64,000 bases of DNA from Laspinema palackyanum D2c (GTDB lineage Bacteria; Cyanobacteriota; Cyanobacteriia; Cyanobacteriales; Laspinemataceae): assembly GCF_025370875.1 (NCBI RefSeq), contig NZ_JAMXFD010000006.1:1-64000 (forward strand), written 5' to 3'. The notes below the pieces were generated by a model. That model was given only the letters and a program-made list of their open reading frames with translations. It searched no databases and was not told the DNA's origin. Made by a program: the position numbers and the translations under genes. Numbering within the stretch: position 1 is the first letter of the stretch; each line of letters opens with the position of its first letter. Shown in pieces: positions 8,143 to 25,075 of this stretch.

Positions 8143-8160
8143 TTTCAATCCAGGACCAAC

Positions 8161-8186
8161 CCGGAAACGACTGAAGTCGTTTCCGG
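8161..8186. repeat. 26-bp perfect palindrome after sbcC
   Basis: Two 12-bp arms (ccggaaacgact and agtcgtttccgg) flank a 2-nt centre, 18 bp past the sbcC stop. The central cgactgaagtcg is shared with the repeats at 35807-36055, so this is a member of that family with longer arms. It may block read-through, but no U-tract follows. Confidence 0.6.
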
Positions 8187-8241
8187 ATTCCGCACCACCC
8201 ATTAAAGTTGGAGAAGAAGACTATATAATAGACTCCAGTTA

Positions 8242-8580
8242 TCAACTAAAAATAACTTTTAATGCCTCCTGGAGTTCGTGAGAATCAGCCGATTGAAGTT
8301 GGCCAAGCTTTCTTAAAATTAGTCCCTTTTCAACCGTGGCTACGACTGGCTTAATCATAGAAGGTTTGAGCAAACCGGCGTTTTGCCATGATGTAATCAT
8401 CACTTCACCTAATTGGGTTGAAGTCTTCAATTGGCTGGTGATAGCCATGATAATAATGTCAGGATATTGGGCGTTGTAAGAATTTGAACTAATGATGACT
8501 GCCGGACGCTTTTTCTTGTTGAATAAATCCGTAAAAGGAAATGGAACAAGAACAACCTCTCCAAAATTATAGGTCATCAT
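8242..8580 (-). CDS. MazF/PemK-type toxin, probable mRNA interferase
   Basis: The 112-residue product has the PemK/MazF fold signature: GEVVLVPFPFTDL at the N-terminus, then KKRPAVIISS and a distal SMIKPVV segment. Family members are sequence-specific endoribonucleases held inactive by a cognate antitoxin. Tandem ATG codons at 8578-8580 and 8575-8577 overlap the 3' end of the antitoxin gene by about 11-14 bases, as expected for translationally coupled toxin-antitoxin pairs. A longer in-frame N-terminus is possible but would run deep into the antitoxin gene. The cut site cannot be predicted. Confidence 0.82.
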   Translation of the reverse strand: MMTYNFGEVVLVPFPFTDLFNKKKRPAVIISSNSYNAQYPDIIIMAITSQLKTSTQLGEVMITSWQNAGLLKPSMIKPVVATVEKGLILRKLGQLQSADSHELQEALKVIFS

Positions 8581-8785
8581 AAACCTCATCTTCCGAATTA
8601 TCCCAAACTGTAGCAAAAGCATTTTCCGATAAGGTCGTTGCTGCAAGAGTTAGGCGAGAGGCATCCCGGCGTTCCAACAAAAAATCAACAAAATCTTCCA
8701 CCTCTATCATGCCTTCAGGAGAGAGTCGGCGGATTTTTTCAAGGAGAGACTGTTCAAAATTAGGGGAAGAATTTATTTGAGGCAT
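8567..8785 (-). CDS. Antitoxin partner of the MazF-like toxin
   Basis: A 72-residue acidic protein directly upstream of, and overlapping, the MazF-like toxin gene. The middle segment (LEKIRRLSPEGMIEVEDFVDFLLERRD) resembles DUF2281-type or cyanobacterial antitoxins, and the acidic tail (DNSEDEVYDDL) would suit toxin neutralisation. The assignment as antitoxin comes mainly from position and size. Such antitoxins usually repress their own operon. Confidence 0.7.
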   Translation of the reverse strand: MPQINSSPNFEQSLLEKIRRLSPEGMIEVEDFVDFLLERRDASRLTLAATTLSENAFATVWDNSEDEVYDDL

Positions 8786-8868
8786 AAGTCGTCAAGAATA
8801 ATAGAAACTAGCCTTTTCCTAGATTAGCACAAACGAGCGGAATTGATCAGAAAAAGGCATCCTCCAAT

Positions 8869-9828
8869 TCATAATCGTGAAATCCCCCTAACATCCACAT
8901 TCCCCCCAGAAATAATCAGCCCAACCCGTCGATTATCGCCCAGAGAAACAATGCCTTCTAATAACGCGGCTGCTGCTAATGCACCCGTAGGTTCTACTAC
9001 AATTTTCATCCGTTCCCACAAGAAAAACATCGTCCGCAAAATAGCCGATTCTGAGACAGTTACCAAGTCATCCACATAATGTAAAACCAAAGGAAACGTT
9101 AACTCCCCCAGAGAAGGAGTACGAGCACCATCAGCAATCGTATCCGGGTTATGAACGCGATGCAATTGTTTACTATGAAACGATCGCGCCGCATCATCGG
9201 CATTGGCAGGTTCAACCCCAATCACCCGACATCCAGGAGAGAGAGTTTTAGCAGCGATCGCACAACCGGAAAGCAATCCCCCCCCGCCACAACAGACCAA
9301 AATTGCGTCTAATTCTCCCACTTCTTCTATCAACTCTTTCGCCGTCGTTCCCTGTCCCGCAATCACTTCCGCGCAGTCGTAGGGGGGAATCACCGTCAAG
9401 GCGCGATCGCGAGACAGAGTTGCCGCCAACTCCTCTCGGGAAATCTCATGTTTGTTATATAAAATCACCTCCACCCCATATCCCCGCGTCGCCTGTTGCT
9501 TGACTTCCGGCGCATCTTCTGGCATAATAATTGTGGCCGAAATCCCCAATAATTGCGATGCTAATGCGATCGCCTGGGCATGATTTCCCGAAGAATAAGC
9601 CAGTACCCCTTGCTGCTTTTGCGCCGGAGATAACTGCACCAACGCATTGTATGCGCCCCGAAATTTAAAAGACCCCGTGCGTTGAAAGTTTTCACACTTA
9701 AAAAACACTTGATTTCCGGTCATTTCATCCACAGTTCGTGAAGTCATCACCGGGGTTTTATGGGCTACCCCGCCCAAGTGACTCGCCGCAGTTTCAATCA
9801 GGCTATAATTGACCGATAAATCACTCAT
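8869..9828 (-). CDS. PLP-dependent threonine/serine dehydratase-like enzyme
   Basis: A 319-residue fold-type II pyridoxal-phosphate enzyme. The Schiff-base lysine lies in TGSFKFRGA (about K55), SSGNHAQ follows at about 79-85, the glycine-rich phosphate loop GGGGLLSG at about 180-187, and a terminal SGGNVD motif. The length and lack of a C-terminal ACT domain fit catabolic threonine dehydratase, serine racemase or hydroxyaspartate ammonia-lyase rather than biosynthetic IlvA. The exact substrate cannot be read from sequence. GAGGAG lies just ahead of the start, and the ATG overlaps the stop of the upstream thioesterase gene as ATGA, so the two are translationally coupled. Confidence 0.85.
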   Translation of the reverse strand: MSDLSVNYSLIETAASHLGGVAHKTPVMTSRTVDEMTGNQVFFKCENFQRTGSFKFRGAYNALVQLSPAQKQQGVLAYSSGNHAQAIALASQLLGISATIIMPEDAPEVKQQATRGYGVEVILYNKHEISREELAATLSRDRALTVIPPYDCAEVIAGQGTTAKELIEEVGELDAILVCCGGGGLLSGCAIAAKTLSPGCRVIGVEPANADDAARSFHSKQLHRVHNPDTIADGARTPSLGELTFPLVLHYVDDLVTVSESAILRTMFFLWERMKIVVEPTGALAAAALLEGIVSLGDNRRVGLIISGGNVDVRGISRL

Positions 9829-10265
9829 AGTTTCTCCTCATTGGATTCAATTCCCACTTGTTGATATTGCTGATAAGCAATTACAAATTCCTGGGGAATT
9901 GCTTTGGGTCGCATCGTTACCGCATCCACCCAAACCCACAGCACTTCCGCAGTTACCACTAAATCCGATTCGCCTTTCTTGCGAATTTCATAATGGCGAG
10001 TGACCCGAGTCCCGCGCAACTTTTCTAACCAAGTGGTAATGGCTAAAATATCTCCGGCAACCGCTGGACGTAAATAATCAATCGTAACTCGCCGCATGAT
10101 AAAATACCCGCCCAATTCTCGATAGCGGTTGATGGAAAAACCCAGATATTCTGAATGTTGAATTCCTACATCTTCTAAATAATGTTGGTAACTGGCATTA
10201 TTGACATGACCCAAAGCATCCATTTCATAATGCCGCACCCGAATATCTGTGACAAATTTTTCCAT
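9825..10265 (-). CDS. Acyl-CoA thioesterase, YbgC/4HBT hotdog family
   Basis: A 146-residue single-domain hotdog protein with the N-terminal catalytic signature YEMDALGHVNN (aspartate at about 16). Family members hydrolyse acyl-CoA or acyl-ACP thioesters; some cyanobacterial and plastid members release dihydroxynaphthoate from its CoA ester in phylloquinone synthesis. Substrate length and identity are not evident. It is followed with a 4-bp overlap by the PLP dehydratase and preceded, 59 bp upstream on the same strand, by an acyl-CoA-dehydrogenase-like gene. Confidence 0.83.
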   Translation of the reverse strand: MEKFVTDIRVRHYEMDALGHVNNASYQHYLEDVGIQHSEYLGFSINRYRELGGYFIMRRVTIDYLRPAVAGDILAITTWLEKLRGTRVTRHYEIRKKGESDLVVTAEVLWVWVDAVTMRPKAIPQEFVIAYQQYQQVGIESNEEKL

Positions 10266-10324
10266 GATTAAGCCAGTTTACCTGAGTGAATTTATCTTAA
10301 TTTTAAACAAATTTGCTCCCTAAT

Positions 10325-11413
10325 TCACGGCGATCGCATCAACTGGGCCAAAGTTGCCTCCATCACCGCTGAAGTTTGCCCAGATACCCCAAAAACCAGC
10401 GCCTCTCGATACACCCGTCCCGCCTGAGAATCCGCCAAATTGGACGCGCCACTCGAAACCGTAATCGCACCTTGCGCCGAACGATAGGCTAAATCAATCC
10501 CTTGCACGCGCAAAGGTAACGCCTGGGAATACCAAGTATCCAGTTGTTCCCGCGATTGTTGGAACATTAACTGCTGGATTTGTTGCCGACAGGTAATCAG
10601 TTCGCGATTCAAGGCATTATAAGCAGCAGAAATAAAGGGGAGTGGTTTTTTCTGGGCGATCGCCTCAATGATATCTAATCCGGCGCGGGCGCATCCTAAG
10701 ATTAAAGCACTATTATTCAACACATTTTTGCGATCGCTTTCATGAATCCCAAGCGCTGGCTGTATAAACAACACCCGTTCCTCCGGCAAAAACCACTGTT
10801 CCAGAACGCCACTCACGGTTTGAGTCGATTGCATTGCCGCCAAAGACATCGGCGCATTCCAGGTAATTTTCCCCCCATTGTCTTGGCAATTCACCAAGGG
10901 AATGATTCCATAAACTGCCCTGCGATCGGGCAATTCTGCCCCCAAAACCACCTCAGAAAAAATTCCAAATCCAGTCACCCAAGGCACCGTCCCCGAAAGC
11001 AAAAATCCCCCAGGAATGGGTAAGGCTTTCACTAAAGGATTGCCAGGGCGTCGCAGATGAGAAAAACCAATCCCTAACAAGCGATTTCCTGTAGCTAAAT
11101 GGGGCAGATATTCCGCTTTCAATGCCTGATTCGGACTGCGACTAATTGCGCTTCCGGCACTTTGATGTTGGGTTTGTAAAAACCCTAACGCCCCAGAGTA
11201 TCGGGCAGTCGCCTCCTGAATTTCCCAAGCCATTTGCGGATCCTCAGTTCCCCAGGGTTCGGGCAGTTTCAACCCCAATAAATGACGACTGCCCAATCCT
11301 TGTAAGGCAGTTTTCAGGGCCTCCGGGTCCTGATCTAAAAGAGTCGCATTCGGTGCTACAGCGTCTCGCAAATAAGACTCTACCACCGCTAATCGGGTTT
11401 GCTGGCAATTCAT
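10325..11413 (-). CDS. Acyl-CoA dehydrogenase-like flavoprotein
   Basis: A 362-residue protein with the acyl-CoA dehydrogenase layout: an alpha-helical N-terminal domain with QTQHQSAGSAI, a middle beta domain (PGGFLLSGTVPWVTG), and a helical C-terminal domain ending in the flavin-contact-like segment SGASNLADSQAGRVYREA. The catalytic glutamate position is not obvious, so an FMN- or FAD-dependent monooxygenase of the DszC/HpaB-like branch is also possible. It heads the run continuing into the thioesterase and dehydratase genes and may be co-transcribed with them. Confidence 0.72.
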   Translation of the reverse strand: MNCQQTRLAVVESYLRDAVAPNATLLDQDPEALKTALQGLGSRHLLGLKLPEPWGTEDPQMAWEIQEATARYSGALGFLQTQHQSAGSAISRSPNQALKAEYLPHLATGNRLLGIGFSHLRRPGNPLVKALPIPGGFLLSGTVPWVTGFGIFSEVVLGAELPDRRAVYGIIPLVNCQDNGGKITWNAPMSLAAMQSTQTVSGVLEQWFLPEERVLFIQPALGIHESDRKNVLNNSALILGCARAGLDIIEAIAQKKPLPFISAAYNALNRELITCRQQIQQLMFQQSREQLDTWYSQALPLRVQGIDLAYRSAQGAITVSSGASNLADSQAGRVYREALVFGVSGQTSAVMEATLAQLMRSP

Positions 11414-11551
11414 CCGCTTAGTTTTTTAAATCCGATTCCGTCCGTTAATTTCCTGAATTATACGATAAATTCAAGTCCATACGAATTTAGCAGTTTTCGA
11501 GTCAAAACGATAAAATAGAAAGGGATAAACGTTCAGGAAATTAATTATATC

Positions 11552-11932
11552 ATGCTCACGCAAATTTATCGAATTATTCTGATTTCTGGCTTGACTTTAT
11601 TACTGGTATTTACGGGGACATCCGCACAAGGCTCAATTGCGGATGCGACTCGGATTTCGCGCTTAGAATCAGAAATTTTCAGCCTGCGATCGCAAATCAA
11701 TCGGTTACAAACCGACGTCGCTAGACTGGGAAGACAACCTGCCGCTTCTCCCCCGATTTCTCGTCCCCAACCCCCTGAAGAGTCTCCGCCAGTGCCCACA
11801 CCCAGACAACCGAATGATCCCTCCCTCGCCCAACAATTTGATAACCTAGCTATCTTGGCGATCGAACTCAAAGAACGCATCACGACGGTTGAACAGAGAC
11901 TCGCGGAAATCGAGGGCCGGATTAGCCCTTAA
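11552..11932 (+). CDS. Small secreted or anchored coiled-coil protein, unknown function
   Basis: A 126-residue product. Residues 6-25 form a hydrophobic signal or anchor segment, followed by a heptad-rich helix (about 33-60), a proline-rich linker (about 64-90) and a second coiled-coil helix to the end. The architecture suggests a periplasmic or membrane-anchored oligomer. I do not recognise a family. The upstream spacer is AT-rich and promoter-like. It is a single gene, with a MAPEG gene 133 bp downstream. Confidence 0.65.
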   Translation: MLTQIYRIILISGLTLLLVFTGTSAQGSIADATRISRLESEIFSLRSQINRLQTDVARLGRQPAASPPISRPQPPEESPPVPTPRQPNDPSLAQQFDNLAILAIELKERITTVEQRLAEIEGRISP

Positions 11933-12065
11933 CTTGACATGGAAGGGGACTGTTGTCATTGAATCCAAAATTGTTGCCTGTCATGCTTTCCCCCTGTCCC
12001 CAATTATGTCATAATTTAAAGCGAGATAAAATCAGTCTATTTCTCCGTAAAATAGAGGTTACCCT

Positions 12066-12473
12066 ATGATATCGCCTTGGCCCAGTTTAGTCACCGTTGC
12101 TGCTTTAATTGTTTACTTTGTGGTGACCATTAATGTCGGTCGTGCCCGAGCTAAATACAAAATTATGCCGCCAGCCATGTCAGGAAATCCAGATTTTGAA
12201 AGAGCGGTGCGGGTTCATGAAAATACCCTAGAACAACTGATTGCGTTCTTGCCTGCTTTATGGATTTTTTCGGTTTTTGTCAGTCCAGTTTGGGCGGCGG
12301 CGATCGGTGGAGTTTGGGTATTAGGAAGGATTATTTACGCCTGGGGATATTACCAAGCGGCTGAAAAACGAGGAATCGGCTTTGCTATTAGTTCCTTAAG
12401 CTACATGATTCTGCTCATCGGTTCCTTAGTCGGAATCATTTTAAACGTGACTCAATCTGGCATTCTCAGCTAA
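12066..12473 (+). CDS. MAPEG family membrane protein
   Basis: A 135-residue protein with about four hydrophobic helices. The family motif is present as FERAVRVHENTLEQL, the glutathione-binding signature of MAPEG proteins (microsomal glutathione S-transferase and leukotriene synthase relatives), followed by GRIIYAWGYY. It probably acts in the membrane in glutathione-linked detoxification, but its activity is not shown. It is transcribed alone and followed by a large hairpin. Confidence 0.85.
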   Translation: MISPWPSLVTVAALIVYFVVTINVGRARAKYKIMPPAMSGNPDFERAVRVHENTLEQLIAFLPALWIFSVFVSPVWAAAIGGVWVLGRIIYAWGYYQAAEKRGIGFAISSLSYMILLIGSLVGIILNVTQSGILS

Positions 12474-12525
12474 TTTGAATCGGAACTATAGCAGTTTACA
12501 CAGTGAGTTATTCGCTTACATTTTG

Positions 12526-12580
12526 GGAGTGCGAGCATCTTGCTCGCTATCGACAATAGCGAGCAAGATGCTCGCACTCC
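12526..12580. repeat. Perfect 25-bp stem hairpin
   Basis: Two perfectly complementary 25-nt arms (12526-12550 and 12556-12580) flank the 5-nt loop cgaca. The arms contain gcgagcatcttgctcgc, itself nearly palindromic. It lies 52 bp after the MAPEG gene. Related but diverged copies occur at 4957-4992 and around 43020-43060 (gagcaagatgctc), so it is a dispersed element. It could also end transcription, although only tttaaa follows. Confidence 0.75.
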
Positions 12581-12700
12581 TTTAAATATCTGTAACTCTT
12601 AAATTCAACCTTCCTCAGAGATGGAAAATTTCTGAGTTTTGTTCTTCTATCGTTTGGGTTTTTATCATAAAAATTTTTTTGCTCGAATTTTGATAAAATT

Positions 12701-13630
12701 ATGAACAATAACTGTCCCGTTTGCGATACGGAATATTTAGAGGGAGAACATCAACGTTGTTCCCAGTGTGGATGGGATTTGACCCCAGTTCCTGGCAGTC
12801 CATCCAGCAAACTCAGAAAAGCGTTTTTAGTCAAACAAAAAATTCAGATAGACTGGGCGAGAAAAATGTGGATACGCCATCAAATACAATCGGAATTCAA
12901 TCATCAGAATACGGCAGAAAACGCAAGTCATTTGGAGAAATTCTCTCTCTTAGAAAATCAGTTTACTGAACGGTTTAATCAAGTTACGATTGAGTTAGAA
13001 CAAGCCCGAGAAGAACGAGCTTATCTGCAATCTCAGTTAGAATGGATTTCGACTTATTTACAGGGAGTGAATTTTCAGCACATTGAGACCGTATTAGGTC
13101 AAGTTTCTAACTGGATGCAGGGGAGTGCAGTTTTGCCAACTCAGGAAGAGACTGCTGACCCTTTTTATCCTAGTTCTGAGGTGGGAATTGATTATAGTCG
13201 GTTAATGAATTTACTCTCCAAAGGGAAATGGAAAAAAGCGGATGAAGAAACTTGGGCGATCGCCCTCAAAGCAGCGGTGCGAGAAGAGGAAGGGTGGTTA
13301 AGCTTAGAAGACTTACAAAGGTTTCCAAAAACCGATTTAGCGACCCTCGATTGGATTTGGGACTACTATAGTCATGGTCAGTTTGGATTGAGGGTACAGC
13401 AGCAAATTTGGGAAACCGTCCAAGGGGATTATACCGAATTTTGCGATCGCGTCCGTTGGCGAGTCCAGGACAACTGGATTTACTATGACGAACTTGACTT
13501 TTCCTTAGACGCTGTACCGGGTCATCTCCCGGCGATCGCATGGCGAAAACGCGCTTGTTATGGCGTCGGAAAATCCACCGCTCAAGAAGCCTTAATCACC
13601 TTATTTGAGTCTCTGCAAAATATTCAATAG
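12701..13630 (+). CDS. Zinc-ribbon, coiled-coil and GUN4-domain protein
   Basis: A 309-residue protein in three parts. Residues 1-26 form a zinc ribbon with cysteines at 5, 8, 20 and 23 (CPVC...CSQCGWDL). A charged helical region follows, likely coiled coil (about 75-125). A GUN4 domain fills the C-terminal 140 residues (LMNLLSKGKWKKADEET, DLATLDWIWDYYSHGQFGL). GUN4 proteins bind porphyrins and stimulate Mg-chelatase; many cyanobacterial GUN4-domain proteins are instead fused to signalling or other modules with unknown roles. This is a composite paralogue rather than the compact GUN4 itself. The start is the ATG at 12701. Confidence 0.82.
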   Translation: MNNNCPVCDTEYLEGEHQRCSQCGWDLTPVPGSPSSKLRKAFLVKQKIQIDWARKMWIRHQIQSEFNHQNTAENASHLEKFSLLENQFTERFNQVTIELEQAREERAYLQSQLEWISTYLQGVNFQHIETVLGQVSNWMQGSAVLPTQEETADPFYPSSEVGIDYSRLMNLLSKGKWKKADEETWAIALKAAVREEEGWLSLEDLQRFPKTDLATLDWIWDYYSHGQFGLRVQQQIWETVQGDYTEFCDRVRWRVQDNWIYYDELDFSLDAVPGHLPAIAWRKRACYGVGKSTAQEALITLFESLQNIQ

Positions 13631-13683
13631 CCCCTGTAATTCCCCCCTTATCAGAAAGAGGGGAATAGGCTATTTATTGAAAA

Positions 13684-14529
13684 TTAAGAGTCCCCTTCAA
13701 CATTTCCAACATTAAACAGAAAAGGAACCCGGGGTGCATCTTTTCCTAACACCAACACCTTCGGCATTTGAGCGCCACCTTCGCGCCAAGCTTGAATCGC
13801 TTCTTTCTGCAGCACTAACTCACCCCCTTGGGCTTTTAAAGTTTCTGCTAACAATCTTTGTGCTTCCGATCGACCTTGAGCGCGATTAATATCGGCTTGG
13901 GCTTCTTGTTCCGCTTCCCGCGCAATATAAACCGCTCGTTGCGCCCGTTGTTCAGCAATTTGCTTCTCTTCAACCGCCTTAGCAAAGTCCGTTGAAAAAT
14001 TCAAATCAATCACACTGGTATCAATGACAATGACCCCATATTTTTCTAATCGCCCGCTGAGAGCATTATCAAAATCTTCCTTCAAAGCACTCCGTTGAGT
14101 AATCGATTCTTCTGCGGTTTTTTTAGCGCCTGCTATCTTAAATGATTCCTGAGTTTGAGGTGCAATAATTTTCGCCACAATATTCTCCAAAGACCCTTGA
14201 GTTCGGCGAATCGTCACCACTTCAGTGGGATCAAGACGGAAGTTAATCGCAAACCGTCCCGTCAAATCCTGTAAATCGCGGGTGGCACTTTTAGCAGGCA
14301 CTTCAAACTTTTGCACTGTCACATCATACACATCCACCTTTGAAATCAAGGGCGGTTTGAGGTGAATTCCTTCGAGTAAAGCGCCATCGCGAGATTTACC
14401 CAGAATACTGAGAACACCTGCCTCACCAGGGTTGATAATCACAAAAGAACTTGATCCAAGCAGCAGAATTAATGCTAAGACAATTCCAATCACGATCGCT
14501 TGGATATTTTGCGCGTACTGATTTTTCAA
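13684..14529 (-). CDS. Prohibitin-like SPFH/Band 7 membrane protein
   Basis: A 281-residue protein with one N-terminal transmembrane helix (about 10-32), then an SPFH domain (INPGEAGVLSILGK to about 190) and an Ala/Glu/Gln-rich coiled coil (EKQIAEQRAQRAVYIAREAEQEAQ). This matches cyanobacterial prohibitin homologues, which form large ring assemblies on the membrane and are linked to protease control and membrane organisation. It is monocistronic and convergent with the GUN4-domain gene. Confidence 0.87.
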   Translation of the reverse strand: MKNQYAQNIQAIVIGIVLALILLLGSSSFVIINPGEAGVLSILGKSRDGALLEGIHLKPPLISKVDVYDVTVQKFEVPAKSATRDLQDLTGRFAINFRLDPTEVVTIRRTQGSLENIVAKIIAPQTQESFKIAGAKKTAEESITQRSALKEDFDNALSGRLEKYGVIVIDTSVIDLNFSTDFAKAVEEKQIAEQRAQRAVYIAREAEQEAQADINRAQGRSEAQRLLAETLKAQGGELVLQKEAIQAWREGGAQMPKVLVLGKDAPRVPFLFNVGNVEGDS

Positions 14530-14828
14530 ATCCTTATCTCCTGTGATGCCATAATAGGGCTACACCTTATAGGTTAGCAGAGTATCTTGAGAGTGGGAAC
14601 GATATCCAGGAGTATTGCTGCTGCATCGGGGATTACCTGATTCGGTTGGGTCACCCTCCAGTCAAGCTTAGAAACGGGGTTGTTTAAGAAAATCTGGTCT
14701 CCAATACCCAGAAATTTCGGTTATAAACCCGGTTATTTGTTATTTGTAACTGGGGTTAATTCAATCTTTAATCAAGTTGTGGCAACAGATAATTGTGCAA
14801 TATTGAATGCACTTAGCTATTATTTCTC
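14530..14828. other. Intergenic region without recognised gene
   Basis: About 300 bp between the prohibitin-like gene and the HNH gene of the Septu-like locus. It contains the GGTT-rich motif aaacggggttg and a related aacccggtta, similar to fragments around 45281-45344, but no coding potential or clear terminator that I can support. Confidence 0.4.
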
Positions 14829-15809
14829 TTAATCTTCCTCGACTAACTCATCATCATCATCATCATGGTATGTCGTATCTTCCACAGACATTAAAGCCGC
14901 AATTTCTTCTTCATCAATTGCATAATCAGACTCTCGCTCTTCTCGGGACATTAAGCGCCCCGATGCTTCTAACCAGTCTAATAGAGAGGGTTCTTGACTC
15001 CGGGGCAGAACATCTGCTATTTTATAGCGAGATTCTTGACGCAACGACGGATTTTCAACGGGTTTGGGTGGATTTTCCTGTAGAGGGATGGGATGACCTA
15101 AATCGTCGAAACAGTCTTTGCGAGTTCCAGGAAAAGCCTCGATTAACTGCTTTAACATCTCCGGATCTTCCCGAAACACTGTCATCCATACGGACGAGAA
15201 CCCCAGAGCCTTGGCCAGTCGGATGACTCCTTTTTTAGTAATATTATTGTTCTGTAATTCTTTAAGTTGTTCTACCGCAATATCCCAAGCTTCGCGACGG
15301 TGAAACCATCGCCGGTCTTTCTCTGTAGGCAACTTGTCCGAATTTCCCTCATCATGCCGTTGTAGCCCGGTTAAGTCAAGAGTGTTTTGTGCTTTTTGTT
15401 GTTGAGACAGATTTAAAGAAGGATTGATTTGAATTAATCCTCCTTCTTTATACTGAAAAATGCTGGCTGTATTGTGGCGATCCGGCCAATAGTAACCCGC
15501 CAAAACAGTCTTTTCATTGGGCGGGATTTTGCCCTTCTGAAATTTCCATATTTTTTCCATATAACGGCCTTTGGTCCCATTACAATTGGGGCAAGCCGGT
15601 AAAAAATTATCCCAGTTTTCTTTACATTGAGGATACCATTCTTTCGGTAATAAATGGTCGATTGCAACATTACTCAGGCGTCTTTCACAATAAGAACAAT
15701 ATTCGCCCAGTCTGTTGATGATATCCTTCTGTGCTTTGTCATAAGGATGAAATTTTTTAGGTCCACCACCCTCATCTGTTGGACAAGACCCTCGGTCAAC
15801 TGGTCTCAT
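14829..15809 (-). CDS. HNH endonuclease, PtuB-like (Septu-type defence)
   Basis: A 326-residue protein with an HNH/zinc-finger nuclease core near the N-terminus: C38-x2-C41, D51-H52 (AIDHLLPKEWYP), N68 and C73-x2-C76 (CPNCNGTKG). This spacing is typical of the retron/Septu HNH proteins. The C-terminal half is mostly charged and ends in a run of five aspartates plus ELVEED, encoded by a GAT trinucleotide tract. The start lies 5 bp after the stop of the PtuA-like ATPase, and AGGA precedes the ATG, so the pair is an operon. In known Septu systems PtuA and PtuB together restrict phage, with PtuB supplying the nuclease. No reverse transcriptase gene is nearby, so a retron is not supported. Confidence 0.82.
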   Translation of the reverse strand: MRPVDRGSCPTDEGGGPKKFHPYDKAQKDIINRLGEYCSYCERRLSNVAIDHLLPKEWYPQCKENWDNFLPACPNCNGTKGRYMEKIWKFQKGKIPPNEKTVLAGYYWPDRHNTASIFQYKEGGLIQINPSLNLSQQQKAQNTLDLTGLQRHDEGNSDKLPTEKDRRWFHRREAWDIAVEQLKELQNNNITKKGVIRLAKALGFSSVWMTVFREDPEMLKQLIEAFPGTRKDCFDDLGHPIPLQENPPKPVENPSLRQESRYKIADVLPRSQEPSLLDWLEASGRLMSREERESDYAIDEEEIAALMSVEDTTYHDDDDDELVEED

Positions 15810-15814
15810 GATTC

Positions 15815-17110
15815 CTACTCCTCGCTCATTCCTGCTGCTTCCCGTTTGAGTTCTAAATAGGCATGATAAGCTAAGTTATCACTATAGGGCATTGATAATT
15901 CATCGAGTTTAGTTTTGAGTTGCTCTTTTCGTTCAGGCGAAGCATCTTGGGATTCCTCTAATACGGCATAGTATTCCTTAGCGGCTGCTTTCATTTTTAG
16001 AAAGCGCTCACTTTTTTGCGGTAACTCTACACCCATGACATTTTCTGTAATATCCTCAATACTTTGATCATAATACTCGCTGGGTTCTTGGGGATCTAGG
16101 TTGAGCAGTTTTCCCTTTCGGAGAGACTGAACGATAAAGGGAGAATGAGTTGTGGCAATAAACTGGATTTCTGGAAAGGTCCGATGTAAATCTTCGACAA
16201 TATGCCGTTGCCAACTTGGATGCAGATGTAAATCAATTTCGTCAATTAAGACAATACCGGATGTTTTTTTGGCGGCATCTCTACCGAAATGAGGATTCAG
16301 CATGGCTGCACGATAGGCGATATCTGCCACCATTGCCAGGACATTGCGAACCCCATCACTGAGCATTCGCAGGGGTAACAAGCGTCCATCTTTTGCCTTA
16401 GCCAAAACATCACCTTGTCCGGCTTCCCCAAATACATAGGAAATATCATCCCAATCTTCGGCTTTCATGCAGTCATAAATGGCATTTTTAACGACTAAAA
16501 GCAAATCGCCATCCTGTCCTCCCGACTTGAGCGAGTTTTCTGTTTCTTGCTTCAACCATTCAATGAGTTTTTTCACATGAGCGTCAGGATGCAGACAATT
16601 TAAATAGCCTTGGGTTCGAGATGTCCTGACCCCTGGGGAATCCGATGGTTCAGGGTTGGGAATCCAGAGGCGATCAGTTCCATAATAAGCGACTAAGGGT
16701 AACCGAATATTTTCTCCATTATCCGCTTTTTCCCGAAGTTGTTTTGATAAATTTTCAATATTTTTATCCTTCTGAAGTTGGTTTTTCCCCGTTACGGATT
16801 GGCCCCAAACAATCTCTTGTCCTTCAAACAGTCCTTCACAAGTCACTGAAGCCGGATATTGGGGTTGAATATCCGTGGTTTCTCCCTGTTGATATTTCTG
16901 CTGACGGACATCATCATTCGTAATATTTCGGGAAGACCCTGGTTCATCAAATCCTGACAATAAATCGCTAATGCCAATCGCTAAGGCATCGAGGATAGCC
17001 GTTTTTCCCTTGCCGTTATCCCCAATGATGAGCGTAAACGGAGCGGAGAGTTCAAAGGTTCTCTGTTCAAATCCTTTGAAGTTGTGAGTGGTGATTTTGT
17101 AGACTTTCAT
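15815..17110 (-). CDS. ABC/AAA-type ATPase, PtuA-like (Septu-type defence)
   Basis: A 431-residue ATPase of the COG3950/AAA_21 type. Walker A is GDNGKGKT (30-37), the ABC signature MLSDGVRN is at about 249-256, Walker B with catalytic glutamate (VLIDEIDLHLHP) at about 285-297, and the H-switch TTHSPF at about 319-324. All catalytic elements are intact. Together with the HNH gene 5 bp downstream it forms a PtuAB-like pair, in which the ATPase is thought to sense infection and control the nuclease. The degenerate paralogue ends 54 bp upstream on the same strand. A stand-alone OLD-like role is less likely because of the HNH partner. Confidence 0.84.
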   Translation of the reverse strand: MKVYKITTHNFKGFEQRTFELSAPFTLIIGDNGKGKTAILDALAIGISDLLSGFDEPGSSRNITNDDVRQQKYQQGETTDIQPQYPASVTCEGLFEGQEIVWGQSVTGKNQLQKDKNIENLSKQLREKADNGENIRLPLVAYYGTDRLWIPNPEPSDSPGVRTSRTQGYLNCLHPDAHVKKLIEWLKQETENSLKSGGQDGDLLLVVKNAIYDCMKAEDWDDISYVFGEAGQGDVLAKAKDGRLLPLRMLSDGVRNVLAMVADIAYRAAMLNPHFGRDAAKKTSGIVLIDEIDLHLHPSWQRHIVEDLHRTFPEIQFIATTHSPFIVQSLRKGKLLNLDPQEPSEYYDQSIEDITENVMGVELPQKSERFLKMKAAAKEYYAVLEESQDASPERKEQLKTKLDELSMPYSDNLAYHAYLELKREAAGMSEE

Positions 17111-17164
17111 GATTTTATCAAGTTAGAAAGGCTGATATATGAAAATAGGCAGTTGGCGGTTTTT

Positions 17165-18148
17165 TTAGCTTTTGAGTTGAACGAGAGATAGGGAGGGAAG
17201 AGAAGTAAATTCGGACTCGAACGGGGGGGTCGTTACCATAAACTGGAGGCAGGGAAAAATATTGGGGAGATGTTTTAACAAAGATTCTACCATAGGTGCA
17301 TCAAGATGTAAACAAATATCATCAATGAGGACGATTCCTGGGGTCTCTCTAATCGCTTGTTTTTTTAACTGAGGATTGAGGACAACCGCACGATAGGCAA
17401 TATCGGCAACGAGGACCGCCAGATGACGCTGGGATAGGTTCATCTCGAACAAGCATTGACCATTGAGTAAGAGTTTATCTTGATTCAAATCATATTGGAT
17501 AGTCCGCAAATCCAAACAAGAGGCGATCGCCTCTTGAACCGCCACAAAAATTTGCAGAGGATTATGCTGTTGTCGGCTAATTAATTCCATCATTTTGAAC
17601 CATTCTAATAATCGCCGTTCTGGAGATTTTTGGTTGAACCAGTAGCAGTTACCCAAGGTTCGGGTTTGGGGTTTATTCGCTTTCACGGTTCTCACGGATC
17701 TTTGATGCCATCCCTGGCGATTATCGCCATAGTAGACCACCAGGGGCAAAATGACCCCGGAACCCTGACGCACTTGGGCTTGAAGTTCATGAGAAACCTT
17801 TAATAGCGATTCCCCCCCTGTTGTTCTGCCCTTGGGTTTTTTAAGGATTCTCTGCCAGTCAATGCGGTGTTCCTGAATCATTCCTTGAGTGGAAATTCGC
17901 ACGGGATACGCTTCCCGATTCGTTGTCATTTGCCCAGGGAAACGGCGCATATCTTGGGTCCGGATATTGCGAGGGGTAATTTCATCAAACCCTAAAAATA
18001 GGGAACCAGCAGCAATGGCAATCGCCTCAATTAGGCTAGTTTTGCCACTGCCTTGGTTTCCTACAATTAGGGTCAATTGCTCATCGAATTGACAGCTATG
18101 ATGCTCAAACTTTCGGAAATTTTCAATTTCAATGCGATGAATTTTCAT
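17165..18148 (-). CDS. Degenerate paralogue of the PtuA-like ATPase
   Basis: A 327-residue relative of the ATPase encoded just downstream. From the ATG at 18148 the two proteins align without gaps through Walker A (GNQGSGKT at 30-37), and both share GFDE, LPLVxYYG, LLEW/LIEW and VADIAYR blocks. The active-site elements are damaged: the LSDG signature reads NLSQRHL, the Walker B VLIDEID reads VLIDDIC (glutamate to aspartate), and TTHSPF reads TTPPFES, losing the H-switch histidine. The C-terminus stops about 100 residues early. It may bind ATP without hydrolysing it, acting as a regulatory subunit, or it may be a decaying duplicate. The reading frame is intact. A TTG four codons earlier (18160) is an alternative start. 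It is the first gene of the three-gene locus. Confidence 0.78.
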   Translation of the reverse strand: MKIHRIEIENFRKFEHHSCQFDEQLTLIVGNQGSGKTSLIEAIAIAAGSLFLGFDEITPRNIRTQDMRRFPGQMTTNREAYPVRISTQGMIQEHRIDWQRILKKPKGRTTGGESLLKVSHELQAQVRQGSGVILPLVVYYGDNRQGWHQRSVRTVKANKPQTRTLGNCYWFNQKSPERRLLEWFKMMELISRQQHNPLQIFVAVQEAIASCLDLRTIQYDLNQDKLLLNGQCLFEMNLSQRHLAVLVADIAYRAVVLNPQLKKQAIRETPGIVLIDDICLHLDAPMVESLLKHLPNIFPCLQFMVTTPPFESEFTSLPSLSLVQLKS

Positions 18149-18203
18149 GATGATGAGCAAGGATTCAATAAACGGTCAAATCCGACGAGCAAGGAATTAA
18201 TTC

Positions 18204-21200
18204 CTAGGTTAGACTACCATAACCTCCGCCTCCTGGGGTTTGAATGGCGAAGATATCTCCGGGGTTCATCTGAACCGCACTGGTGCTGCCTAATTCTTCA
18301 ATTGTACCATCGGTGCGTTCCACTAAATTATGCCCGATCGCACCGTTGCCGCCTTGATTTAATCCCGCAGGAGGAATGCGGCGGTGATTGGATAAAATTG
18401 CTGCTGTCATCGGTTCCAGAAAACGTAGGCGGCGAATGACTCCATTTCCTCCGGTATATTGTCCTTTTCCGCCGCTATTTTCGCGAATGGAAAAGCTTTC
18501 TAATCGGACGGGGAATCGCCATTCTAAAACTTCAGGATCCGTGAGGCGGGAATTGGTCATGTGGGTTTGAATGGCGTCGGTTCCGTGGAAGTTGGGACCG
18601 GCACCGGAACCGCCACAAATGGTTTCGTAATATTGATGGCGATCGCTGCCAAAGGTAAAGTTATTCATACTCCCTTGGGATGCCGCCATTACGCCAAGGG
18701 CGAGGTACAAGGCATCCACGATCGCCTGAGAAGTTTCCACATTTCCCGCTACTACTGCTGCTGGATAGCAGGGGTTTAATAAGCTGCCTTTGGGAATAAT
18801 AATGTCTAGGGGTTTAAGACATCCGGCATTCAGCGGAATGTTATCGTCTACTAAAGTGCGAAAAACGTACAACACTGCCGCTTTACAGACTGCTGCTGGG
18901 GCGTTAAAATTGCTGTTGAGTTGCTCCGATGTGCCGGTGAAATCAATAGTGGCACTGCGGCTATTTTTATCAATGCTGATTTTAACGTGGATTTCTCCGC
19001 CATCATCCATTCCGTAGGTAAATTCGCCATTTTTGAGTACAGCAATCGCCCGTCGGACGGATTCTTCAGCGTTGTCCTGAACATATCCCATATAGGATTC
19101 TACGGTTTTTAAACCATAGTATTCCACCATTTTTACAAGTTCTTGCACTCCTCGTTCATTGGCGGCAATTTGCGCTTGTAAATCGGCAATGTTTTGATCT
19201 GTATTTCGCGCTGGATATTCGGCAGTGGTGAGAATTTCTAATAAGTGGGATTCTTGGAATTTCCCAGCTTTGACAATTTGGACGTTATCTAACAACACCC
19301 CTTCTTCGACCACGGTTTTGCTATGGGGGGGCATGGAACCTGGGGTAATGCCGCCAATATCTGCATGATGTCCTCGGGAGGCGACGTAAAATAAAATGTC
19401 CTCTCCGGCATTATCAAACACGGGGGTAATTACGGTAATATCTGGGAGATGAGTGCCGCCATTATAGGGATTATTGGACACATAAACATCCCCGGGTTTA
19501 ACGGTTTTCCCTTTGTCGTTCATTAAGGCTTCTACGCTTTCACTCATTGAGCCTAAATGCACGGGAATATGAGGAGCATTCGCCACGAGTTGACCGGCGC
19601 GATCAAAGATGGCGCAGGAGAAATCGAGGCGTTCTTTGATGTTGACGGAAGAAGAGGTATTTTGTAAGGTAATCCCCATTTGTTCGGCGATGGCGCGGAA
19701 CAAGTTGTTGAAGATTTCTAACAGAACTGGGTCAGGATTGGTGGCGGCGATCGCCTGAGTTTCTATCCGAGGCTGTTCGGCAGTAGCGACCCGGTTTAAA
19801 ACTAAGTAATTCCGGTCCGTGATTTCCACTTGCCAACCGCAAGAAATGGCATTTGTGCCGGTTTGTTCTATGATTAAAGCCGGTCCAGTAATGGTATCTC
19901 CCGGTTGCAATTCTTGGCGTTCAAATACCGGGGTTTCCTGCCAGGAACCGCCATCGTACATGGGGACGGTGGCAATGGGGGAGGGAACGGCTGACGATCG
20001 CCGGGGAACGGTGGGTTCCTCGGGGGGTGTCATCTGCTGGACTACTTCTACGGAAACCGTTTCTACAATTAAGGATTTGTCTTCTTTGATGAATCCATAT
20101 CGTTGACGGTGTTCCGCTTCAAATGCCGCTTTGAGGGTGGCTGGATTGTCAGCAAAATCGACAATTAAGGTGGAGTCAGTGCCTTGGTATTTCAGATGCA
20201 GTTTAGCAACGGAAACAAGTTCGCTTGTCTCCTCACTGTTCTGGCTTAATTCGGCTTTTCCTTCCGCTTCCAGTTGGGATAATTGGCTTTGCAATTGGCC
20301 TAGCAATTCCGCAGTTAAGGGAGATTCTACGGCCCGTTGGCGGATGGTGCGAATATCTGCTAATCCCATGCCATAAGCGGATAAAACCCCAGCAAAGGGA
20401 TGAATAAACACCCGTTTCATGCCCAAGGTATCGGCAATTTGACAGGCGTGTTGACCTCCGGCACCGCCAAAGCAACAGAGGGTATATTCAGAGACATCAT
20501 ATCCCCGTTGTAGGGAGATTTTTTTAATGGCATTGGCCATATTTTCCACAGCGATCGCCAGGAATCCGGCAGCGACTTGTTCTGGGAGTCGGTCATCTCC
20601 CGTCGATTGTTTTATCTGTTGGGCCATTTGGTTGAATTTGTCCAGAACCACCTCAGAATCTAAGGGTAAATTGCCATTAATCCCAAACACTTTTGGGAAA
20701 AATTGCGGTTGAATTTTCCCTAACATCACATTACAATCGGTGACGGTTAATGGTCCCCCTTTGCGATAGGAAGCAGGACCAGGATTGGCCCCGGCAGACT
20801 CGGGACCGACGCGATAGCGTGACCCATCAAAAAATAGGATTGAACCGCCACCGGCAGCAACGGTATGAATGGACATCATCGGAGTTCTTAATCGCACTCC
20901 GGCAATTTCTGTTTCAAATTCTCGTTCATATTCACCGTTATAATGGGCAACATCGGTGGAAGTTCCGCCCATATCAAAGCTGATAATTTTCTCAAATCCA
21001 GCCTTTTTACTGGTTTCTACCGCCCCCACAATCCCACCGGCAGGACCGGATAAGATGCTATCTTTGCCTTGAAATTGTCGCGCATTGGTTAACCCGCCAT
21101 TGGATTGCATGAACATCAAACGCTGATCTAAGGCATCGGGATTGGAAGAGAGTTCTCCGGAAACGCGATCGACATAGCGACGCAAAATCGGCGAAAGATA

Positions 21201-21854
21201 GGCATCCACAACGGTGGTATCCCCCCGACTGACAAGCTTCATTAACGGACTAACTTCGTGGGAAACGGAGACTTGAGTAAATCCAATGTTTTGAGCGAGT
21301 TGAGCAATGCTTTGTTCATGTTGGGGATAGCGATATCCATGCATCAAAACGATTGCACAACTTCTAATTCCGCTATGATATGCCGCTTGTAATTCTTCGA
21401 TTAAAGGCGGTTCGTTAACGGGTTGTAATTCTTCTCCCTGGGCGCTGTAGCGTTCTTCTACCTCGATGGTTTGTTCATAGAGCATTTCGGGCAATAAAAT
21501 TTCCCGGGCGAAGATATCCGGGCGGTTTTGATAGCCGATTCTTAGGGCATCTTTAAATCCTTTGGTTATCACCAGAACTGTGCGATCGCCTTTGCGTTCT
21601 AATAAAGCATTGGTGGCAACCGTTGTTCCCATTTTAATCGCCCCAATTTGGTCAATGGGTATGGGTTCATCCCCCGTAATCCCCATCAGTTCTCGTATCC
21701 CTTGGACCGGCGCATCTTTGTATCGTTCTGGATTTTCTGATAGCACTTTATGTACAATCAATTGCCCATCGGGACGCTTGGCGACTACATCGGTAAAAGT
21801 CCCCCCGCGATCAATCCAAAATTCCCAGCGATTGTCAAAATTGATTAGAGTCAT
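18204..21854 (-). CDS. 5-oxoprolinase / hydantoinase-type fused enzyme
   Basis: A 1216-residue fusion of a HyuA-like ATP-grasping half and a HyuB-like half, the layout of ATP-dependent 5-oxoprolinase (about 1200-1290 residues). The N-terminus has [11 protein letters not shown] and, near residue 295, [13 protein letters not shown], both of the actin-fold type; the second half starts near residue 690 and carries HLGSMSESV and [12 protein letters not shown]. The enzyme opens 5-oxo-L-proline to glutamate using ATP, as part of the glutathione cycle. A bacterial hydantoinase or acetone-carboxylase-like substrate cannot be excluded. Its stop is only 55 bp upstream of the degenerate ATPase start, so read-through into the Septu-like locus is possible. 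Confidence 0.87.
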
Positions 21855-21931
21855 GCTAATTTTAGTGACACTTGAAAGGTTTTGACTATTTTAAATCATT
21901 TAGAGTAAAATCGGCAAGGGGTCAAAAATCT

Positions 21932-22672
21932 CTATTCAATTTTTAGGGCTAACATTTCTGGCACTAAACAGTTGGTCGCGATTCTCACAACTCCTAATTC
22001 CAGCAATCTTTCTAAGTCTTTTGGCTTATCCACAGTCCAAGCGACGAGATCAACGCCTTGTTCCCGACTGAGGTTAATTAAGGCGGGATTTTTGATTAAC
22101 AGTTTATACTTGCTCATCATGACGGTATTTCCCGCCTGGACCGCTTTAGTTAATTGTCTGCGGAATGCAGTCCGATTGGCAACGAGATAAGCAAATGAAA
22201 AATTCTCACTCCGTTCCCGAACTCGGTCAATAAAAGAAGCATTAAAAGAAGCAATAATACATCGATTTCTAAACTGATGTTTAATCAGCATCTCAATGAA
22301 CTCATCTATCTTTGTATCAGTCCAATAGGAATGAGTTTTGACTTCGATATAGATAAACTTTTTGATATTTTGCAAAGCAATTAAAGCTTCTTCTAAGGTG
22401 GGAATGGGTTCTCCCTTAAAGCGCCAATCAAACCACGAACCCGCTTCTCGATGCTTAATTTGGTCTAAAGTTTTCTTCCTGACTTTGCCTCGAATTCCCG
22501 TGGTGCGGGTTAAAGTAGAATCATGAATCACCACTGGCACTCCATCGGCACTTAACTGGACATCTAACTCGATGGAGTCCGCCTGATGTTCGATCGCCGC
22601 CAAAAATGCCGCCAGAGTGTTTTCTGGGGCGATACTGGAGTATCCGCGATGGGCGATAATTTCTAGCTGCAT
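21932..22672 (-). CDS. Glycerophosphodiester phosphodiesterase
   Basis: A 246-residue TIM-barrel phosphodiesterase of the GlpQ/UgpQ family. The active-site signature is clear: AHRGYSSIAPENT (H8, R9), ELDVQLSADG (E35, D37) and VVIHD (H50). It hydrolyses deacylated phospholipids to glycerol 3-phosphate and an alcohol. There is no signal peptide, so a cytosolic UgpQ-like enzyme is likely. It is divergent from recQ, with a 57-bp shared promoter region. Confidence 0.9.
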   Translation of the reverse strand: MQLEIIAHRGYSSIAPENTLAAFLAAIEHQADSIELDVQLSADGVPVVIHDSTLTRTTGIRGKVRKKTLDQIKHREAGSWFDWRFKGEPIPTLEEALIALQNIKKFIYIEVKTHSYWTDTKIDEFIEMLIKHQFRNRCIIASFNASFIDRVRERSENFSFAYLVANRTAFRRQLTKAVQAGNTVMMSKYKLLIKNPALINLSREQGVDLVAWTVDKPKDLERLLELGVVRIATNCLVPEMLALKIE

Positions 22673-22729
22673 GATCTGAATCCGGTAAAATAAGTAACTG
22701 TCCTATCTTTAACATAACCTGTTTTGCAA

Positions 22730-24196
22730 ATGGACCGCCATCATAGTGCATCCTGGAATCAGGTCCGGGATACGTTCCGTGAAATCTGGGGATACGATGA
22801 GTTTAGAAGTCCCCAGGGAGAAATCGTGCAGAGTCTGTTGCAGGGGAAAGATGCACTGATTGTCTTACCTACGGGTGGGGGAAAGTCAATTTGCTTTCAA
22901 CTTCCGGCGTTACTGCAAACTGGATTAACCCTGGTGGTGTCGCCATTGGTGGCACTGATGGAAAATCAGGTGCAAGAATTACGCGATCGCCACTTAGATG
23001 CGGCGCTTTTACATGGGGAAGTTCCCACAAAACAGCGGAAAGTAACCCTAAACGCCCTAGAAAACAATCAATTACGGTTATTATATCTCTCCCCAGAAAC
23101 GTTACTGAGTCCACCAGTTTGGCAGCGTTTATTAGACCCCAAATTACCCATTAATGGGATGATTTTAGATGAGGCACATTGTTTAGTTCAATGGGGGGAT
23201 ACATTTCGCCCCGCCTATCGCCGTTTGGGTGCGGTTCGTCCCGCCCTTTTGAAATCAAAACCAGCGGGTTCTAAACTGGCGATCGCCGCGTTTACGGCAA
23301 CGGCTGACCCGACGGCACAGAAAACCATTCAATCGGTGTTAAAATTACAGAAACCTAACCAATTTTTACTCAGTCCTTATCGGTCCAATCTCAATTTACA
23401 GATTCAAATTGCTTGGACTCCCCGAGGACGTCGGCAACGGATGTTACAGTTTATCCAGTCTCAGGGTTTACAGTCCGGTTTAGTCTATGTGAGAACTCGA
23501 CGGGATGCGGAAGAACTGGCGGATTGGTTACGGCAACAAGGATGTAAAACCTCTGCCTATCATGGCGGTTTGAGTGGAGAGGAACGCCGCAGTATTGAAA
23601 GCAGTTGGATTGGCGATTCCCTGCAATTTGTGGTCTGTACTTGTGCCTTTGGGATGGGAGTGAATAAACCCAATGTGCGTTGGGTTTTACATTATCAAAC
23701 TCCGGCGTTACTATCAGAATATATTCAAGAAGTGGGCCGCGCTGGTCGAGATGGCAAACCGGCAACTGCACTTTCTTTAATGAGTGAATGTACGGGATGG
23801 TTAGACCCTCAAGATGAGCATCAGCGCCAATTTGTGGCAACCCAAAAACAAACCCTCTATCGCCGCGCTCAAAATTTGGTTAAAAAGTTACCAACCCAGG
23901 GGAATATTAATCAAATTTCAGAACAATATCCCGATGGAGCAATTGCCCTGTCTTTACTGCATAGTATGGGTCAGTTACAATGGCAGGACCCGTTTCATTA
24001 CCGGATTACTCGTTCGGGTTCTTCTGCGGGTTTATCTGTAGATAATCCGAGTCAACAGATGAAGCAATTCCTGTTGACTCGGCGATGTCGGTGGCAGTTT
24101 TTATTAGAAGCGTTTGGGTTTGGAGAGGAAGCTAAAAGGATGCGATGTGGTCATTGCGATAACTGTTTGGGGAAGAGGTTTATGGGTTTTATTTAG
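22730..24196 (+). CDS. RecQ-family ATP-dependent DNA helicase
   Basis: A 488-residue 3'-5' DNA helicase. Motif I is LPTGGGKS (46-53), DEAH is near residue 147, motif VI reads EVGRAGRDG, and a cysteine cluster (RCGHCDNC) near the C-terminus marks the RecQ zinc-binding subdomain. There is no HRDC domain and the winged-helix region is minimal, so it is a short RecQ form. It acts in recombination and replication-fork repair. The ATG at 22730 is preferred over the TTG two codons upstream. Confidence 0.9.
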   Translation: MDRHHSASWNQVRDTFREIWGYDEFRSPQGEIVQSLLQGKDALIVLPTGGGKSICFQLPALLQTGLTLVVSPLVALMENQVQELRDRHLDAALLHGEVPTKQRKVTLNALENNQLRLLYLSPETLLSPPVWQRLLDPKLPINGMILDEAHCLVQWGDTFRPAYRRLGAVRPALLKSKPAGSKLAIAAFTATADPTAQKTIQSVLKLQKPNQFLLSPYRSNLNLQIQIAWTPRGRRQRMLQFIQSQGLQSGLVYVRTRRDAEELADWLRQQGCKTSAYHGGLSGEERRSIESSWIGDSLQFVVCTCAFGMGVNKPNVRWVLHYQTPALLSEYIQEVGRAGRDGKPATALSLMSECTGWLDPQDEHQRQFVATQKQTLYRRAQNLVKKLPTQGNINQISEQYPDGAIALSLLHSMGQLQWQDPFHYRITRSGSSAGLSVDNPSQQMKQFLLTRRCRWQFLLEAFGFGEEAKRMRCGHCDNCLGKRFMGFI

Positions 24197-24243
24197 TTAT
24201 AGTTATTGAGAGAGTTTCAGGCGGAAGAGCCGCTGATTTTACA

Positions 24244-24301
24244 TGACATGGCAGAGCCATGTCACGAGGTTTTGGGGAATTATTAGCCCGCGCAGGCGGG
24301 C
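24244..24301. repeat. Two small hairpins downstream of recQ
   Basis: A perfect 9-bp stem (tgacatggc/gccatgtca, loop aga) at 24244-24264 is followed by a 6-bp GC stem (gcccgc/gcgggc) at 24286-24301. They lie between the convergent recQ and glycine-rich protein genes and may reduce read-through. Neither has a strong T-run. Confidence 0.5.
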
Positions 24302-24364
24302 TTGGTCCGCTTTTCCCCCACCCTTTAGGATGTGGGTTTGGGGGTTGTTAGGGATATAAATGGG

Positions 24365-25075
24365 TTAGGGAATTCTGGGATTTGGGAAAGAACTTTGACC
24401 CGTTAAAGAGGGGTGATTCGGTAGATTAACGGGAGGAACCGTAGGCATAGCAGCGGGATTCACAAGGGGTTCGCCGGGAAGACGATAAATTCCCCATTCT
24501 TGGATGCCTCTTCCGGTTAGGATTTCGTCTGCTCGTTCAATTTCATAAACTGAGCCTTCCACGATTAGTAAATAGTGGCCTTGAGAGAGGCGCTCGTTAT
24601 AGATTAGGGCCCGTTCTTCCGGGATACCTAAACCGGCTAATGCTCCGACTAAACCACCTGTAGCGGCCCCGATCGCACCTCCGGCTAGAGTATTCAGCAG
24701 GATTGTTGCCACAGTTCCTCCTGCGAGCACAGGTCCGATTCCTGGAATGGATAAGGCAGCTAGGGCTTGCAGCAAGCCGATAAAACCCCCGACGGTTCCC
24801 CCGGCTACGGCACCTGTCGCAGCCCCTTCTTCGGCCAGGGTTCCGGAGGCGTCGGTGGTGTGGCTACGGAGTGGGGGGCTGGCGGCGGCATCTCCCATGG
24901 TGAGGTGAGAGTTCATGTTAGCTTCTCCTGGATTCCGGGACCGGGGGAGGTCCGGAGCAATAATTGAGAGGTTATTGAGGGAGAATCCTGCTTGTCGGAG
25001 TTGGTGGAATGCGACTTCGGCATCTTCATAACGCTCGAAGACGCCTACAGCGCGTCTAATTTCATCTACAGTCAT
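24365..25075 (-). CDS. Glycine-zipper general stress-like protein (copy 1)
   Basis: A 236-residue protein. The N-terminal region (AVGVFERYEDAEVAFHQLRQAGF) resembles the YflT/general-stress-protein-17M domain. A long Gly/Ala-rich hydrophobic stretch (about 80-145; GAVAGGTVGGFIG, ATILLNTLAGGAIG) could insert into a membrane. A C-terminal GHYLLIVEGS...RGIQEWGIY segment has the same fold cue. Similar proteins are common in cyanobacteria and linked to stress, with no proven biochemical role. It is 102 bp downstream of its paralogue on the same strand. Confidence 0.75.
   Translation of the reverse strand: MTVDEIRRAVGVFERYEDAEVAFHQLRQAGFSLNNLSIIAPDLPRSRNPGEANMNSHLTMGDAAASPPLRSHTTDASGTLAEEGAATGAVAGGTVGGFIGLLQALAALSIPGIGPVLAGGTVATILLNTLAGGAIGAATGGLVGALAGLGIPEERALIYNERLSQGHYLLIVEGSVYEIERADEILTGRGIQEWGIYRLPGEPLVNPAAMPTVPPVNLPNHPSLTGQSSFPNPRIP

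Follow-up and report, generated by a model that had tools for sequence, protein, structure and literature searches.

In the 64,000-nucleotide window analysed here (positions 1 to 64,000 of contig NZ_JAMXFD010000006.1 of Laspinema palackyanum D2c), a Septu (PtuAB) locus carries, besides the ATPase PtuA and the nuclease PtuB, a gene for a degenerate, C-terminally short PtuA paralogue of 327 aa, termed DEG below (17165..18148, stop included; all window features described are on the minus strand). We give an even chance to the explanation that DEG is an old PtuA duplicate turned into a nucleotide-binding, hydrolysis-poor partner subunit within this locus. DEG is followed head to tail by an intact PtuA (431 aa, 15815..17110) after 54 bp and, a further 5 bp on, by an HNH nuclease of the PtuB type that carries a fused DUF3134 domain (326 aa, 14829..15809). 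DEG starts with ATG, an in-frame TTG lying further upstream at 18160. Coordinates and PADLOC calls (PtuA at 5.2e-140 for PtuA and 2.1e-79 for DEG; PtuB at 2.6e-72 for residues 1–243 of the nuclease) bear out the three-gene arrangement of degenerate ATPase, PtuA and PtuB-like HNH protein described in an earlier sequence-only reading of this DNA.

The alignment of DEG with PtuA covers 329 columns at 32% identity (E 2e-45). The same reading had noted that the alignment runs without gaps through Walker A and that the later motifs are altered; both observations hold, there being no gap ahead of residue 58. Walker A of DEG is intact (GNQGSGKT, aa 30–37, 18038..18061), whereas NLSQRHL replaces LSDGVRN at the signature (aa 237–243, 17420..17440), VLIDDIC replaces VLIDEID at Walker B with the catalytic glutamate changed to aspartate (aa 273–279, 17312..17332), and TTPPF replaces TTHSPF at the H-loop position with loss of the histidine (aa 306–310, 17219..17233). 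The early end of DEG, put by that reading at about 100 residues, is a shortfall of 104 residues relative to PtuA. In PtuA all motifs are intact, and the 58 non-DEG PtuA rows compared without exception have the Walker A lysine, the Walker B aspartate and glutamate, the H-loop histidine and the serine and glycine of the signature. The four distinct DEGs, that of the window among them, all retain the Walker A lysine and the Walker B aspartate (P-loops GNQGSGKT, GTQGSGKT and, twice, GNKGSGKT); none has the H-loop histidine or the signature serine, and the Walker B glutamate and signature glycine are each found in one of the four (G004 and G013, respectively). Only 17–19 residues follow the H-loop position in the DEGs, as against 51–119 (median 106) in the 58 other rows. 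Of the 85 positions that are invariant among the 13 nearest PtuAs, 47 are retained in all four DEG copies.

Conservation was also compared in blocks between genera, window versus G012, for DEG and for PtuA each, the window DEG row being read from the upstream TTG, which puts its block numbers 4 ahead of those given here. Identity over the 20 residues directly after the P-loop lysine is 0.80 for DEG and 0.70 for PtuA, and the Walker B block of DEG, at 0.70, is near the 0.80 of PtuA; the block after Walker B stands at 0.30 in DEG versus 0.85 in PtuA. The predicted DEG model forms an ABC head (pLDDT 78.6, pTM 0.83) with a terminal strand at residues 320–324, and in the PDB it is best matched by the PtuAB and PtuA structures of E. 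coli. The four listed chains of the PtuAB complex 8eea comprise two of 445–456 residues and two of 372–375, which, judged from chain length alone, may mean that the C-terminal region of PtuA is ordered only where PtuB docks. Measured against a functional PtuA, then, what DEG retains is the lysine of Walker A and the aspartate of Walker B; the histidine of the H-loop, the serine of the signature and the C-terminal region beyond the ATPase core are missing. Together with the match of its model to PtuA, this pattern of kept and lost motifs and the short C-terminus point to a subunit that would bind nucleotide, hydrolyse it poorly and not itself dock PtuB. Apart from the DEGs, a solo PtuA of 383 aa with intact motifs and a short C-terminus (51 residues past the H-loop) was observed in G085 (L036 6962-8113), where open reading frames (ORFs) of the surrounding 15 kb gave no match to the window PtuB.

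DEG is present in five of the 14 genomes of the family sample, which belong to two genera: the window genome (G000) and G004 in Laspinema, and G011, G012 and G013 in Planktothricoides. G006 was left out of this count, since it shows only 17 DEG residues at one contig end and, at another, sequence up to where PtuB ends. In all five genomes the reading frame is intact with zero stops, and DEG directly adjoins a hydantoinase-type gene of 1216–1278 aa. When 330 genomes from the order were searched with a DEG profile, the five DEGs, four of which are rows of the profile itself, scored 586–630 bits; an ordinary PtuA came next at 330. Across 386 genomes of the phylum a PtuA search was positive in 66 and, among the matches listed, two full-range adjacent PtuA genes occurred only in the window genome; at most four candidates were scored per genome in this search, G000 was the only one of the five DEG genomes among those matches, and neighbouring matches in G123, on profile positions 1–160 and 177–427, were counted as one broken PtuA gene. 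The genome searches scored the best four to six candidates per genome, and extra tandem copies may be missed. In viral sequences, the scan for DEG returned two loci, one a 28% match and the other a 44-residue match.

A tree of PtuA-type proteins started from 127 matches, which gave 64 rows after removal of copies with identical last 250 residues; two gapped alignment rows were then dropped, and 62 rows were analysed. The G011 DEG, one residue different from that of G012, was removed by the identity filter. The four distinct DEGs group together (100/99) next to a 13-row PtuA clade that includes the PtuAs of both genera. A DEG clade placed beside a PtuA clade that spans both genera suggests that the duplication most likely predates their split; transfer of the whole locus between the two genera could also account for it. 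In G011 and G012 the gene order is DEG, PtuA, a second-DEG remnant, a second PtuA and PtuB. In G013 the 84 aa remnant of PtuA is followed by a DnaJ-domain protein (L034 9794-10702).

We next consider selection, using NG86 estimates within Laspinema and between genera. Within the genus, dN/dS was 0.092/0.197 (0.47) for DEG, 0.042/0.220 (0.19) for PtuA, 0.127/0.209 (0.61) for PtuB and 0.018/0.251 for the hydantoinase gene; between genera, dN was 0.43 for DEG and 0.29–0.31 for PtuA, dS being saturated (∼2.2 for DEG). In neutral runs, in which substitutions were placed at random with the number of sites matched to that observed, the N/S ratio averaged 3.11 (sd 0.70), and 5 of 2000 runs came down to the 1.72 of DEG, while 42 of 2000 kept the DEG frame free of stops. 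These data demonstrate that DEG is under purifying selection, weaker than that on PtuA.

Several observations weigh against a role for DEG as a maintained partner subunit. Within the genus the dN/dS of DEG exceeds that of PtuA (0.47 versus 0.19), and this faster evolution also fits relaxed constraint. The block holding most of the P-loop and its preceding strand is less conserved in DEG (0.53) than in PtuA (0.80), as are the signature block (0.50 versus 0.90) and the H-loop block (0.50 versus 0.89). The degree of inactivation appears to differ between copies, G004 retaining the catalytic glutamate and G013 having LNDGDRN at the signature. DEG was found in two genera only, and in G013 an intact DEG occurs with a PtuA cut to 84 aa and no PtuB match was found. 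DEG might on these grounds be a slowly decaying duplicate retained by chance near a hotspot, as its motif losses and short C-terminus, its persistence in G013 and the fragmentary second copy in G011 and G012 would also allow. We regard this as quite unlikely. The frame is intact in every one of the five copies, the DEGs fall in a single clade separate from the PtuAs of either genus, neutral runs seldom match either the low replacement count or the stop-free frame, and the four distinct DEGs terminate at nearly one place past the H-loop. Moreover, PtuB, at 0.61, indicates that a high dN/dS alone is no proof of decay at this locus. Decay specific to this strain was rejected as the main account, given the five genomes of 14, the separate clade and the neutral runs. 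The sequence-only reading had taken the pseudo-ATPase to be retained and frame-intact, and had named confinement to one strain, a Ka/Ks near 1 or frequent frameshifts in relatives as signs of decay. Retention in an intact frame is seen in both genera, well beyond the one strain. The other two signs mostly fail to appear as well, Ka/Ks being 0.47 within the genus and the five DEG copies being free of stops.

Rapid evolution of both DEG and PtuB is compatible with an arms race, and it is conceivable that DEG acts as a decoy, soaking up phage anti-Septu inhibitors of PtuA, for which it need not belong to an oligomer at all. Retention of 47 of the 85 PtuA-invariant positions while catalytic ones are lost would suit such a decoy, as would the persistence of DEG without an intact PtuAB in G013. 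Retention of the P-loop lysine and the Walker B aspartate would however be unnecessary for it, and no PtuA-inhibiting phage protein was identified, no search for one having been made; we consider the decoy rather improbable.

Some heterodimeric ABC proteins, CFTR and TAP1/2 among them, have one nucleotide site that is degenerate. They resemble the arrangement proposed for DEG and PtuA in that one partner binds nucleotide and has an altered signature, catalytic glutamate or H-loop; they differ in being membrane proteins, whereas the pairing of DEG with PtuA is one that we infer. DEG and PtuA would pair head to head, as is usual for ABC proteins, making the ATP sites asymmetric: the site built from the DEG Walker A and the PtuA signature would bind ATP and hardly hydrolyse it, and the second would combine the PtuA Walker A with the broken DEG signature. 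Presumably unable to dock PtuB, DEG would tune the PtuA oligomer and lower the count of PtuB-carrying subunits, and with fewer of these it would, we propose, set the threshold at which PtuAB switches on. That DEG is a regulatory or sensor subunit, as the sequence-only reading had suggested, is likewise inferred. For Septu type I, the assembly is reported as PtuA6:PtuB2 (PMC12948488), and a review table enters PtuAB as 'Unclear' for what is apparently activation (PMC12198126). A naturally retained pseudo-PtuA would offer a direct handle on ATP-site asymmetry as a control of PtuAB. In open-access literature, no title or abstract opening among the matches listed concerned a pseudo-ATPase in Septu.

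In a special case of the partner-subunit explanation, DEG would be an immunity-like brake: by poisoning the hexamers of PtuA it would hold PtuAB inactive until an infection takes the brake away. The missing C-terminal region of DEG is consistent with such poisoning, as are the two chain-length classes of 8eea if these lengths, the sole basis for the argument, do mark PtuB docking. PtuA loci as a rule have no DEG match, however, so that a brake is not generally needed, and we consider this version unlikely.

The remainder of the locus has the testable features of Septu type I. The PtuA-family ATPase (PADLOC match at 15818-17110) has intact Walker A and B, signature and H-loop, and the PtuB-family HNH gene lies directly next to it. 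The HNH domain of PtuB (aa 38–81, 15567..15698; Pfam HNH 3.8e-05) matches PtuB chains of known structure (E 3e-4); the aligned residues include His52 and Asn68, which are invariant in three rows. In a related Septu, Walker A/B and HNH residues are reported to be required for defence (PMC13096335). Where the locus departs from Septu type I is in its composition, which is not exactly one ATPase and one HNH gene without an extra domain: a degenerate PtuA stands upstream, and PtuB has a C-terminal DUF3134. Because of these two additions we file it, on sequence features, as a Septu variant, in keeping with the variant system that the sequence-only reading had proposed from DEG. The extra pseudo-ATPase and the host-protein fusion suggest a differently regulated Septu defence.

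Related ATPase and HNH proteins also occur in Septu type II, or retron I-A (Ec78, Ec83), which is defined by a PtuC reverse transcriptase together with PtuA and PtuB (PMC8565338). The window proteins fall well short of the corresponding NCBIfam cut-offs (PtuA 211.8 bits versus 500; PtuB 43.9 versus 150), none of the 10 flanking ORFs scanned encodes a reverse transcriptase, and a Rfam search of 8000-24500 gave zero matches. A retron was therefore rejected, and the earlier statement that the locus is not one stands for those 10 ORFs and that interval, the reverse transcriptase scan being limited to these ORFs rather than the whole window.

The fusion on PtuB, absent from the sequence-only reading, we judge at least as unusual as DEG. 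The last ∼70 residues of PtuB are a DUF3134 domain (residues 253–320, 14850..15053; PF11332 8.5e-26), for which the Pfam entry gives no function. DUF3134 was found in 186 of the 386 genomes of the phylum sample. Elsewhere in cyanobacteria it is a stand-alone gene that resembles the PtuB C-terminus and adjoins an mraY-matching gene in all 10 genomes examined (neighbour identified by tblastn in nine and by Pfam in the window genome, whose stand-alone copy is at G000:C6:144152-144379). This adjacency is in itself a possible lead to DUF3134 function. Among the matches listed, DUF3134 lay in an open frame of more than 200 aa only in the window genome and G380, and the G380 match is a 145 aa ORF beside mraY, that is, an extended stand-alone gene. 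Fused PtuBs were found in G000, G004 and G012, and that of G011 is probably fused too, its gene running off one contig with its end on another. Nine related PtuBs, each from a genome in which a single PtuA match reached 1e-50, are unfused, matching the window PtuB only to residue 236–243 in open frames of 226–264 aa; G028, with a partial PtuB match in two ORFs, was excluded. DEG and the fusion co-occur, four loci having both (G011 counted) and nine neither, a pattern that rests on two lineages only. The G012 PtuB (713 aa; L032 3572-5713) has a long acidic repeat separating the HNH part from DUF3134. The fold model of the window HNH-DUF3134 protein was poor (pLDDT 49.2).

The fused domains of the two genera are each like the stand-alone copies of their own genus. 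Those of Laspinema are 76–78% identical to eight stand-alone copies of that genus, the Planktothricoides fused domain clusters with stand-alone copies of its genus (100/100), and the fused domains of the two genera are only 51–55% identical to each other. Constraining the four fused domains to one clade cost 46 log-likelihood units (p-AU 8e-6) in a topology test of 21 rows and 82 columns that was run after the identities had been seen. Likeness to own-genus copies and the absence of a single fused clade argue that DUF3134 was captured, or one old fusion overwritten by gene conversion, separately in the two genera. Either course suggests that likeness of the fused domain to the host's own copy is favoured.

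The DUF3134 copy on PtuB probably tethers or regulates the nuclease. Plant immune receptors carry integrated decoys, and by analogy DUF3134 could serve as a bait on PtuB, one that the two genera acquired or renewed independently. The asymmetric oligomer of PtuA and pseudo-PtuA would then be an ATP-dependent trigger for a PtuB baited with the host's mraY-linked protein, and a phage factor directed at DUF3134, or at a partner of this protein in cell-wall synthesis, would also hit the bait and free the nuclease. We hold this combined scheme to be a rather long shot. Searches of phage sequences for DUF3134 gave zero matches and, in IMG/VR, the 50 stretches fitting a pattern included no relatives, so that no support for the bait idea comes from a phage copy. 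No paper joining DUF3134 and 'cyanobacteri' was found in the open-access literature. Placement of a host domain on the nuclease separately in two genera would mean that a host process, that of DUF3134 next to mraY, is possibly watched or exploited, and the fusion is equally a functional lead for DUF3134.

The locus lies at a variable chromosomal site. DEG is bordered by a hydantoinase A/B (oxoprolinase-like) gene (18204..21854), the C-terminal part of which was matched in all 14 family genomes, and the other side of the locus is flanked, in Laspinema, by a Band_7/SPFH gene (13684..14529). What lies between these genes varies among Laspinema genomes. G005 has almost nothing there, G003 a DUF5131-like protein and G001 a DUF5131/TcmP-like pair; G002 combines that pair with a 773 aa protein, and a 773 aa protein is also found in G007. 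In G006 the DEG-PtuA-PtuB locus is visible by its two outer edges, both at contig ends. Families at this site were tested on the G002 pair and 773 aa proteins, the remaining site genes being assigned by likeness. The DUF5131/TcmP pair corresponds to the PADLOC candidate defence PDC-M30/M41, and its presence together with the variable content gives the site beside the hydantoinase A/B gene the look of a defence hotspot. A similar DUF5131/TcmP-like pair lies beyond PtuB in G012.

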